Part shown: positions 24,902-36,563 of the stretch, piece by piece
How the letters are laid out: every line of letters starts with the position of its first letter
Position numbering within the stretch: the stretch's first letter is position 1
DNA from: Minisyncoccota bacterium
GTDB lineage: Bacteria > Patescibacteriota > Minisyncoccia > Phycocordibacterales > UBA9973
Length of the DNA stretch: 36,878 nucleotides
Reading direction: 5' to 3'
Assembly: GCA_017991895.1 (NCBI GenBank)
Contig: JAGOPR010000008.1
Span: 1 to 36,878, forward strand
Notes under the pieces: generated by a model
The model's input: the letters and a program-made list of their open reading frames with translations, nothing else
What the model was told of the DNA's origin: nothing
Databases searched by the model: none
Program-made: the position numbers and the translations under genes

Positions 24902-24912
24902 GAATTGAAATT

Positions 24913-24943
24913 GTACCCGCGACTATGTTGCGGGTACCTTTTT
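24913..24943 (+). terminator. Terminator before polA
   Basis: An 8-bp GTACCCGC / GCGGGTAC stem (24913-24920 with 24930-24937) is followed by five T. It ends the membrane acyltransferase transcript just before the polA -10 box. Confidence 0.85.
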
Positions 24944-24946
24944 GTA

Positions 24947-24952
24947 TATACT
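24947..24952 (+). promoter_or_regulatory. -10 box of polA
   Basis: TATACT ends 6 nt before the polA ATG. With a terminator directly upstream this must be where polA transcription begins, and the mRNA would be leaderless. Confidence 0.55.
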
Positions 24953-24958
24953 CTAACT

Positions 24959-27355
24959 ATGCCAAAAAAGACCGCGAAGTCTCCTAAAGAATCCAAAAAA
25001 CGCCTTGTTTTGCTTGATGCGCACGCCATAATTCACCGTGCCTACCATGCAATGCCCGAGTTTTCCAACAGCAAGGGCGAGCCTACAGGGGCCTTGTACG
25101 GCATCTCAGCCATGCTTATGAAGATAGTATCTGACCTTAAGCCAGACTATATCGTAGCTTGTTATGACCTTCCACAAAAGACATTCCGCCATGAGGCTTA
25201 TGAAGCCTATAAAGGTACTCGCACAAAAGCTGATGACAATCTCGTTGCTCAGATAATTAGTTCAAGAAAAATCTTTCAAGCTTTTGGCATTCCAATGTAT
25301 GACGCCGCTGGATTTGAAGCCGATGATATTTTGGGAACCATCGTTGAGAAAATGAGTAAGGACAAAAATGTTGATGTGGTAATCGCTTCCGGCGATATGG
25401 ATACACTCCAATTAGTAGATGAAAAGCGAGTGCGAGTTTTTACTTTAAAAAAAGGTATCAACGATACCATCATGTATGACGAAGAAGGAGTTATCGCGCG
25501 TTTTGGTTTTATTCCAAAACTTTTGCCAGACTACAAAGGACTTCGTGGTGACCCATCGGATAATATTATTGGGATTGCCGGTATTGGAGAAAAGACGGCG
25601 ACAGATTTGATAAAAAGTTTTGGCTCAATCGAAGATATTTACAAAAAATTAAAAAAGGATGAAGCTTCGGTTCTTGCGGTTGTGAAGCCACGCATTGTTG
25701 AACTACTAAAAAATGGGGAAGAGGAAGCGCTTTTTTCCAAAACGCTTGCCACTATCCGTCGTGATGCGCCGATAGAGTTTCATTTGCCGGAAAAGTTTTT
25801 TATTGACTCTGTAGAACTCACACGCATCGAAGAGCTTTTCCGCGAGCTTGAGTTTCGTAGTCTTGTGCCACGCGTTCAAACACTATTCAAAAAAAATGGA
25901 ATCGAAATACAAGAGGATAGAACTCCTGTTTCGGTGGAGGACGCGGATGAGGTAAAAAAAATCGCTCTTGGACTGTGGCTTTTAAATTCTGATCTTACAA
26001 ATATTACAGCAGATGATATTTCGCATTACGCTGGGGCGAAAAATTTTGCAGAAGGGAAGGAGAAAATACTCGCCGATATAAAGGCAAAAGAGCTTACGTA
26101 TGTCTATGAAGATATTGAGCTTCCTATTTCTCCTGTAGTAGACGCGATGGAAAAATACGGCATAACCCTCGATACGAAACTCATGAAATCCCTTGCAATA
26201 GAAGGACATAAGGAACTTGAGAAAATAGAAAAAAATATATTTAAACATGCGGGGCGTGAGTTTAATGTTGCTTCTCCAAAACAGCTCGGCGAGATTTTGT
26301 TTGACGAGCTCAAAGTAGGAGAAGGAACAGGAACAAAATTAAAAAAGACAGAAGGCGGAGCGCGCTCTACCCGCGAATCCGAGCTTCAGAAGTTGAAAGG
26401 CATGCACCCTATTATCGATGAAATTCTTCGCTACCGTGAGTTGGCGAAACTTCTCTCTACGTATATAGATACATTGCCAGAGCTTGTGGGCAAAGACGGA
26501 AGAATTCATGCCACATTCAACCAGATGGGCACAACAACGGGGCGATTTAATTCTGTAAATCCAAACTTGCAGAATATTCCGGCGGGCGACGGGTTACCAA
26601 AAAAGATTCGCGGATCATTTATTGCGCCAAAAGGAAAAGTTTTTATCGCTTTCGACTATTCTCAAATCGAGCTTCGTGTCGCCGCGCTCATGTCTGGCGA
26701 TGATTACCTTATCGATACTTTCGAAGCAGGGAAGGACGTTCACTCTGCTGTCGCGAGTCGTGTGTTTGGTGTAGACGAAAAAGATGTCACCCACGAGCAA
26801 CGTCGTGCAGCAAAAGTAATTAACTTTGGAATTCTCTACGGCATGGGCGTAACTGCGCTCCAGCAAAATTTGGGAACAGACAGAAAAGAGGCGCAGAAAT
26901 TCCACGATGCATATTTTGCGAGTTTCCCACGCATCGCCGAGTACACAGAAGAAACAAAAGAATTTGCAAAAAAGAATGGCTACACGGAAACGCTTTTTGG
27001 AAGACGAAGATATTTCCCCGCACTCAAATCTCCGCTTCCATTTATTCGAGCAAGTGCCGAACGCCAAGCAGGGAATGCTCCGCTTCAGGGTACGGCCGCG
27101 GACCTTATAAAAATAGCTATTCGTGAGGCCGACCAAGCCCTCCGAGCTGGAAAGCTTATAGACAATGCGCATTTGGTGCTCCAAGTGCACGACGAGCTCG
27201 TGTATGAAGTGGATGAGGGCGCAGTCAAAGAGGTGTCTGTACTGGTGGAAAATGTCATGAAAAACGTCATGCCGAATGACTTTCTAAAGGGGCGACGGGC
27301 TGTGCCGCTGGAGGTGCATGTAGCTGTGGGCAAGAATTGGGGCGACCTAAAATAA
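24959..27355 (+). CDS. polA: DNA polymerase I
   Basis: The ATG at 24959 gives 798 aa; the longer in-frame start at 24905 reads through the terminator and is rejected. The N-terminal 5' nuclease has DAHAIIHRAYHAM, GFEADDILGT, SGDMDTLQLV and GDPSDNIIGIAGIGEKTA. The middle region (about 320-410) lacks the acidic residues of a 3'-5' proofreading exonuclease. The polymerase has TTTGRFNSVNPNLQNIP, motif A DYSQIELR, motif B RRAAKVINFGILYG and motif C QVHDEL. It removes primers and fills gaps in replication and repair. The stop codon is the first base-paired triplet of a structured element. Confidence 0.97.
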   Translation: MPKKTAKSPKESKKRLVLLDAHAIIHRAYHAMPEFSNSKGEPTGALYGISAMLMKIVSDLKPDYIVACYDLPQKTFRHEAYEAYKGTRTKADDNLVAQIISSRKIFQAFGIPMYDAAGFEADDILGTIVEKMSKDKNVDVVIASGDMDTLQLVDEKRVRVFTLKKGINDTIMYDEEGVIARFGFIPKLLPDYKGLRGDPSDNIIGIAGIGEKTATDLIKSFGSIEDIYKKLKKDEASVLAVVKPRIVELLKNGEEEALFSKTLATIRRDAPIEFHLPEKFFIDSVELTRIEELFRELEFRSLVPRVQTLFKKNGIEIQEDRTPVSVEDADEVKKIALGLWLLNSDLTNITADDISHYAGAKNFAEGKEKILADIKAKELTYVYEDIELPISPVVDAMEKYGITLDTKLMKSLAIEGHKELEKIEKNIFKHAGREFNVASPKQLGEILFDELKVGEGTGTKLKKTEGGARSTRESELQKLKGMHPIIDEILRYRELAKLLSTYIDTLPELVGKDGRIHATFNQMGTTTGRFNSVNPNLQNIPAGDGLPKKIRGSFIAPKGKVFIAFDYSQIELRVAALMSGDDYLIDTFEAGKDVHSAVASRVFGVDEKDVTHEQRRAAKVINFGILYGMGVTALQQNLGTDRKEAQKFHDAYFASFPRIAEYTEETKEFAKKNGYTETLFGRRRYFPALKSPLPFIRASAERQAGNAPLQGTAADLIKIAIREADQALRAGKLIDNAHLVLQVHDELVYEVDEGAVKEVSVLVENVMKNVMPNDFLKGRRAVPLEVHVAVGKNWGDLK

Positions 27356-27477
27356 ACTTCCACAAACGGCGCATTTCTGTGTTGCCGCGCTCGGTTCGCT
27401 CCCGCAACGTACGTTTTAGTACGTCTTGGTCGCGAACCTCGCTTGCGCCTTGAACTGCATCCATTTTTGGAAGTTTA
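27353..27477 (+). repeat. Structured 125-nt element, copy A
   Basis: A terminal stem (27353-27361 with 27469-27477) starts on the polA stop codon. Box 1 (27366-27385) and box 2 (27445-27462) nearly match copy B at 36438-36563 (18/20 and 17/18). Between them lie a GGTTCGC / GCGAACC stem (27393-27399 with 27432-27438) and an apical ACGTAC / GTACGT hairpin (27407-27412 with 27419-27424). No ORF is present. The rest of the gap to 27547 is plain AT-rich sequence. Confidence 0.8.
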
Positions 27478-27547
27478 TGTATGGGAAAGTTTGTTTATAT
27501 CTATCTATTAAAAGTAAATAAACTAGCCACATTTTCTTACTTTACGA

Positions 27548-35958: not shown

Positions 35959-36444
35959 ATGGTAGAACAGATGGCTCGCGCAGAAAGTGGACGACTTGTA
36001 CACCAAGTTATTGCTCACTCGTATCTCCTTTACCTAGGGGCTATTGTTTTGGGCTTTATACTAGACCTCTTATATCCTATCTCCTTTGGATCTACCGAGC
36101 TTGAGGCACTTGGGATGCTTCTTATTGTGCTTGGAACTGTGGTTATATTTTGGGCGCAACATTCAGCCAGAAAGAGTTCACATTTACGAAATCTTGATTC
36201 CCATAAAGTCTGCCGAGATCATTTTTGTGTAGGCCCATATGTATTTACAAGATTGCCGACGCAATATGGACTATCAGCAATGGCACTAGGACTTTCATTC
36301 TTAGAGGGCTCACTCTTTATGGTTTTGTGTACACTAATTGCTTTTCTTATCGGAAGATTTTTCTACATTCCAAAACAGGAACGACATCTTGCTTTGAAAT
36401 ATGGCGAGGCTTACCTCGAATACAAGCGCCACGTGAAGTTCTAG
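35959..36444 (+). CDS. Isoprenylcysteine carboxyl methyltransferase-like membrane protein
   Basis: The 161-aa product has four to five membrane helices and the ICMT/PEMT-type signatures: GPYVFTRLPTQYGLSAMALGLSF (about 93-115; the usual GPY-x-x-x-RxP-x-Y block) and the closing KQERHLALKYGEAYLEYKRHV. Family members methylate lipids, isoprenoid-linked Cys or small molecules using AdoMet at the membrane. The substrate here is unknown. Its stop codon lies inside the terminal stem of structured element copy B. Confidence 0.85.
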   Translation: MVEQMARAESGRLVHQVIAHSYLLYLGAIVLGFILDLLYPISFGSTELEALGMLLIVLGTVVIFWAQHSARKSSHLRNLDSHKVCRDHFCVGPYVFTRLPTQYGLSAMALGLSFLEGSLFMVLCTLIAFLIGRFFYIPKQERHLALKYGEAYLEYKRHVKF

Positions 36445-36563
36445 CATTCCCATACGGCGCATTTCGTTGTTGCTTGTTCATTTGTTCCAGCGGAGTATAG
36501 TAATACACCTTAGTCACAAATGAACGTCGCGCCTAGAACTGCATCCGTCTGCGAAGCTAGAAC
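36438..36563 (+). repeat. Structured 126-nt element, copy B
   Basis: A terminal stem (36438-36445 with 36556-36563) includes the stop codon of the 35959 gene. Box 1 (36454-36473) and box 2 (36529-36546) match copy A. The middle stem (36476-36485 with 36516-36525) has a sequence unlike copy A but pairs over 10 bp. A small GTAT / ATAC apical hairpin lies at 36495-36506. Confidence 0.8.

Follow-up and report, generated by a model that had tools for sequence, protein, structure and literature searches.

A mobile MITE-class element with a hairpin core spanning phyla, found at gene stop codons in a patescibacterial genome

Two copies of a structured repeat, designated copies A and B, lie on the plus strand of the window, that is, the whole stretch of 36,878 nucleotides analysed in this study, the one at the end of polA and the other at the end of a gene for a protein of 161 amino acids. 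The features are as follows.

24905..27355, + strand: polA (DNA polymerase I), its end coinciding with the start of copy A; site empty in three congeners
27353..27477, + strand: copy A of the element (a MITE), TIR to TIR, TAAAC...GTTTA (fold; covariance-model match 27348-27479, 134.7 bits)
27353..27363, + strand: left terminal arm of copy A, TAAACTTCCAC, its initial three bases being the polA stop TAA (sequence, fold)
27366..27385, + strand: left core box of copy A, ACGGCGCATTTCTGTGTTGC (box search)
27395..27436, + strand: middle stem and apical hairpin of copy A, variable in sequence and paired (fold, alignment of copies)
27445..27462, + strand: right core box of copy A, GCGCCTTGAACTGCATCC (box search)
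27467..27477, + strand: right terminal arm of copy A, TTGGAAGTTTA (sequence, fold)
35959..36444, + strand: gene 5' of copy B, 161 aa, its TAG stop lying within the left arm of the element; site empty in G005
36438..36563, + strand: copy B of the element (fold; covariance-model match 36436-36562, 112.8 bits)
36442-36559, + strand: TIR-like part of copy B, TAG...CTA, with an outer GTTC/GAAC pair as well
36454..36473, + strand: left core box of copy B, ACGGCGCATTTCGTTGTTGC (box search)
36529..36546, + strand: right core box of copy B, GCGCCTAGAACTGCATCC (box search)

The preliminary description had proposed structured repeats at these two places, and this was confirmed: the window contains exactly two occurrences of each outer box (0.03 and 0.05 expected by chance), and on either strand both copies fold far better than dinucleotide shuffles (z of -6.5/-7.2 for copy A and -4.2/-5.0 for copy B). 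The arms of the two copies are unlike in sequence, and both are paired. A start exactly at a stop codon holds for copy A, which begins at the polA TAA (27353-27355); it does not hold for copy B, of which the left arm contains the TAG stop (36442-36444), with pairing that reaches 4 nt into the coding sequence. The 161-aa gene has a likeness, judged by eye only, to isoprenylcysteine methyltransferases, and its NCBIfam scan gave no match. Empty sites, looked for as had been suggested, were found at orthologous positions in congeners: in G002, G004 and G005 the 3' end of polA carries no copy A, and in G005 there is no copy B either, its upstream gene being again followed by the window's next gene. 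Since the C-termini of the proteins are preserved, both copies are insertions at the stop codon.

The two copies of the window are by no means the only ones. In the source genome (751 kb) the left box gave 17 matches against none for a reversed control, and a covariance model built from 13 copies identified 21 places, dispersed on both strands. Three congeners carry no copy and two carry 11 and 14, and the family was found in 37 of 148 relatives, with a patchy distribution. A second model detected it, in both orientations, in 157 of the 397 genomes of the order, the copy numbers of this survey being minima because up to 8 candidates were scored per genome. Among GTDB representatives, the exact two-box pattern was matched in Kaiser-, Taylor-, Nomura-, Yonath- and Lloydbacteria, and also in the isolate Neisseria dentiae, several Myxococcales MAGs and one Opitutales MAG; the TIRs and middle stems in these are unrelated in sequence, yet they are paired. 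Of 46 genomes in the genus of N. dentiae, 16 carry the element, with up to 61 matches, and the N. dentiae isolate itself gave 60 model matches. A literature search with the core sequence found nothing relevant, the plasmid and phage collections searched with an N. dentiae copy gave no match, and no gene common to the surroundings of the element across phyla was convincing. Inside the core, a segment of about 80 bp from a second repeat, TACAG.AGCTGTACACCTT...CTCAAGGTCTTGCGAAGCTCC, was observed in two copies of the source genome (L005:1584-1644 and L015:1538-1595) and one of G130 (L190:5092-5112), and parts of it elsewhere in G119 loci (L144, L146).

The ends of the element were best seen in young copies. 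In the patescibacterial relative G111 these begin and end with TAGGACTTACGCA...TGCGTAAGTCCTA as TIRs, and exact 5-bp direct repeats of varied sequence flank 8 of 17 copies (chance p about 2e-17), with 4 of 5 bases matching in five more. In N. dentiae, where the ends are GAGACCTTTGCAAAA (342 such ends genome-wide at no more than one mismatch), an exact 5-bp target duplication (TSD) is present at 13 of 22 copies with the same core (chance p about 4e-34). The copies of the source genome have kept no exact 5-bp TSD and are probably older. The reconstructed 5-bp targets are AT-rich and roughly symmetric, of the form T...A. From its TSDs, empty sites and patchy distribution the element is mobile, as had been supposed. 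The view that the arms are pre-existing terminator stems with an insertion in the loop was discarded; the arms are part of the element, since young copies carry constant arms plus TSD. At L204:1501-1524 of G111 we observed a 24-bp palindrome, TAGGACTTACGCACGTAAGTCCTA, in which two TIRs abut each other with nothing else present; it may be what a deletion left behind, or a footprint.

Together with the TIRs, the dispersed copies and the empty sites, the length of 118-160 bp and the lack of coding capacity for a transposase place the element in the MITE class, so that the earlier statement that it resembles no known class was wrong. The ends GAGACCTTTGCAAAA are identical to the published TIR of ISNme1, a member of the IS5 family (PMC4596501). 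An N. dentiae element of 1.3 kb with these ends (L348:1262-2594) encodes a transposase, of which the second half exceeded the NCBIfam IS5 cut-off (NF033581) when the gene, being interrupted by another MITE, was scanned as two separate pieces. This insert (L348, 1800-1920) is a CGTC-core MITE with TSD AGGCT, lying in the transposase gene of the only N. dentiae copy of this IS5-type element that was examined. A TIR common to the element and an autonomous IS5-family element of the same genome was found in N. dentiae only. In Patescibacteria, a transposase with TAGGACTTACGCA ends was looked for and not found: PF01609 has no match in the source genome, the PF01609 matches of G111 are without the TIR (one examined was closest to IS982), and no half-elements flanking a gene, as an autonomous copy should show, were present in 1.38 Mb around copies. 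The TIRs and 5-bp target duplications of young copies indicate a DDE transposase; mobilisation of the IS5 type is supported in Neisseria by the ends and is inferred for Patescibacteria. The preliminary description had instead suggested a single-strand transposase, that is, an ssDNA-hairpin element moved by a Y1/HUH enzyme (RAYT/IS200-like). The long imperfect hairpin with conserved bulges and the frequency of Y1_Tnp genes in the order fit such an origin, but the source genome has no Y1_Tnp, Y1 genes are about as frequent in carriers of the element (26 of 37) as in the whole set (97 of 148), the Neisseria TIR is that of an IS5 element, and Y1 transposition makes no target duplications such as those present here. 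This reading is largely refuted and hardly credible.

Between the TIRs, the core is a long imperfect palindrome with two conserved asymmetric boxes, GGCGCATTTC..CGTTGC and GCGCCT.GAACTGCATCC, which persist as the stems change in sequence under strict Watson-Crick compensation. The proposal of a conserved fold with compensatory changes was borne out by independent copies: in an alignment of 89 matches from several phyla, which was fitted to the model and in which some rows repeat an element in the reading of the opposite strand, the covariation score was 0.506 against 0.150 (sd 0.006) for shuffled and no more than 0.088 for slid alignments, and 37 of 39 pairs had changed on both sides. Between genomes, conservation is highest in the boxes and among the lowest in the TIRs, opposite to the expectation for a neutral MITE interior; the near-perfect boxes of the cross-phylum set partly reflect the exact-match search, and the between-genome comparison is the unconditioned one. 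The paired arms might also have arisen by quasi-palindrome correction or template switching in an otherwise unremarkable core, with the boxes inherited from one horizontally spread MITE, as the arms of any MITE have to match and the double changes are purely Watson-Crick with few intermediates. We consider this unlikely: correction would erase the internal mismatches that are conserved in four phyla, and middle stems and TIRs wholly different between phyla indicate that the sharing of boxes is not due to recent transfer.

When only unique places were counted and pairs with T-G as the commonest state were left out, G-T and A-C were equally rare in the stems (64:62 in A5 and 84:129 in A4), whereas the control, tRNA acceptor stems from the same DNA, gave 15:0. 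Since G·U is no commoner than A·C despite the strong covariation, the fold looks to be kept at the level of DNA and not as RNA. With no excess of G-U and no Rfam family matching the element, the suggestion of an RNA gene was not upheld, and a riboswitch was rejected on the same grounds.

A preference for stop codons had been suspected, and it is strong: in Patescibacteria, 86 copies have their left end no more than about 45 nt from the stop of a same-strand gene, against 23 with the right end close to an opposite-strand stop (p 1e-9). At the commonest offset the initial three bases of the TIR, TAG or TAA, are the stop codon itself. In N. dentiae the ratio is 11:7, not significantly different from that in Patescibacteria (p 0.13). 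In the source genome 17 of 20 copies are sense-oriented behind a gene stop, the upstream genes including guaB, polA, a pfkB-type kinase gene, purH, ribBA, gyrB, folD, glyA, ppc, proA, ychF, glmS and those for a class II tRNA synthetase and an aminotransferase. Many copies of this genome (G000) follow genes for enzymes of purine/one-carbon or amino-acid metabolism (guaB, purH, folD, glyA, proA, glmS). Relatives carry copies behind ribosomal-protein and secY genes, named by reading the sequences. Sense copies located exactly at stops in these clusters were observed at L148:6275, L148:9863, L178:1369, L178:4282, L149:9844 and L188:9883. The same gene is used in different families, secY in G119 and G133 and rpsG in G119 and G130, which may reflect either common descent or repeated insertion.

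Two explanations of the orientation were tried and rejected. The target sequence does not explain the bias, since the 5-bp targets are AT-rich and roughly symmetric. Purely post-insertion selection was rejected because recent (11:5) and older (75:18) copies show no significant difference. The element was also considered as an intrinsic terminator, and this was rejected because no T-run follows the right arm, terminator-like hairpins being located further downstream in several copies. It could also be argued that the element is a structured 3'-UTR RNA (mRNA stabiliser, RNase III substrate or attenuator), once mobile and retained for the effect of its sense-strand hairpin on the upstream gene. 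The bias at stops, the positions behind polA, gyrB, guaB, purH, glmS and others, the recurrence behind secY and rpsG and the strong covariation would all agree with this. Such a role is nevertheless quite improbable, because the stems show the G-U frequency described above, the same genes of congeners are without the element, N. dentiae is without orientation bias, Rfam lacks the element, and other phyla have the same boxes with unrelated ends. Some regulatory influence of the element at 3' ends may nonetheless exist.

Among known systems, the closest are the IS5-family MITEs with ISNme1-type ends, ATR of N. meningitidis and BrickBuilt and MITE464 of Porphyromonas gingivalis (PMC4596501). These likewise are intergenic, multi-copy and without coding capacity and have TIRs of IS5-family IS; their interiors differ, the patescibacterial TIR of the present element is TAGGACTTACGCA, and its core spans phyla with compensated stems. 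Correia/NEMIS, ERIC, RUP and Rickettsia RPE, described as clade-restricted sequence families of which RPEs enter reading frames (PMC2229807), share with it size, hairpin transcript, gene-adjacent sites and mobilisation in trans, but its core is present in four phyla and, unlike RPEs, it abuts stop codons. REP/RAYT systems (GTAG REPs) and integron attC sites also have structure conserved above sequence and bulged imperfect hairpins, whereas the element has TIRs with 5-bp TSD and no Y1 association. Integron attC sites also follow stop codons; the element was judged by eye for R boxes (RYYYAAC/GTTRRRY), and its TSDs argue against attC.

CGTC-tagged REPs, such as dRS3 of Neisseria, are repeats of 20-40 bp with a CGTC tag, reported without a dedicated transposase (PMC3733652). 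They too are palindromic DNA repeats across phyla; the core of the element measures about 90 bp, lacks the tag and has different boxes, and neither the terminal tag nor the 20-40 bp stem-loop of CGTC and GTAG REPs is seen in the alignments. A second core, GTCATTCCCGCG..GCGGGAATCCAG, is found between the TIRs of the element in G111 as well as in N. dentiae, with exact TSDs in 11 of 16 N. dentiae cases and in three of the G111 elements looked at; this core corresponds to the CGTC-tagged/dRS3 palindrome. Such palindromes inside MITEs with the TIRs of the element and 5-bp TSDs were observed in two phyla, at L192, L211, L216, L219 and L220 of G111 and at L335, L336, L347, L352 and others of N. dentiae, and represent a possible mobilisation route for CGTC repeats. 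A third core, GCGTCATGCTCGGGCTTGACCCGAGCATCT..., was observed between GAGACCTTTGCAAAA ends (N. dentiae L326, L338).

The element is a MITE by the defining tests and of the IS5 type where this is testable, what is unusual being the hairpin core that spans phyla. Very probably it is mobilised in trans by IS5-type DDE transposases and combines a conserved DNA hairpin core with lineage-specific ends, in agreement with the presence of the same TIRs on other gene-less elements with different cores in G111 and N. dentiae. The patescibacterial transposase would likewise be of the IS5 type. The core may be maintained in folded form, as a DNA hairpin or cruciform (for example extruded or single-stranded in replication), and may be recognised by a widespread factor or help to pair both ends, while the TIRs would be exchanged or drift to fit the resident transposase. 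Copies at stop codons would survive because the TIR starts with TAG or TAA and so supplies or restores the stop. Points against this scheme are that the search of Patescibacteria gave no transposase with TAGGACTTACGCA ends and that copies of the source genome have no exact 5-bp TSD, which would be expected only of old copies. Moreover, neither a conserved interior nor the 86:23 bias follows from a plain MITE, and one transposase could hardly bind the TIRs of many older copies, which are too diverged. A bolder proposal, which we hold tentatively and would sooner doubt than accept, is that the core represents a structural DNA module in its own right, forming another bacterial palindrome superfamily beside GTAG and CGTC REPs, recognised folded by a cross-phylum factor and repeatedly taking resident IS5-type TIRs ('TIR swapping'). 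If this is true, MITEs would be chimeric, an old hairpin module having received new ends, and the movement of CGTC palindromes without a transposase would also be accounted for.

The element is more than an ordinary repeat, as its core motif recurs, between completely different transposon ends, in candidate-phylum bacteria, Neisseria, Myxococcota and Verrucomicrobiota. The interiors of MITEs are usually treated as neutral filler; here it is the interior that is conserved, its stems being compensated and its asymmetric boxes fixed in four phyla, and the ends, expected to be constrained, differ completely between lineages of the element. Whether hairpin cores have a function in transposition or are captured modules can therefore be tested. 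The same ends around a CGTC/dRS3 palindrome in Neisseria and a patescibacterium offer a mobilisation route for a class of repeats reported without a dedicated transposase (PMC3733652), and the N. dentiae isolate provides an experimental system for an element first seen in an uncultured patescibacterial genome.
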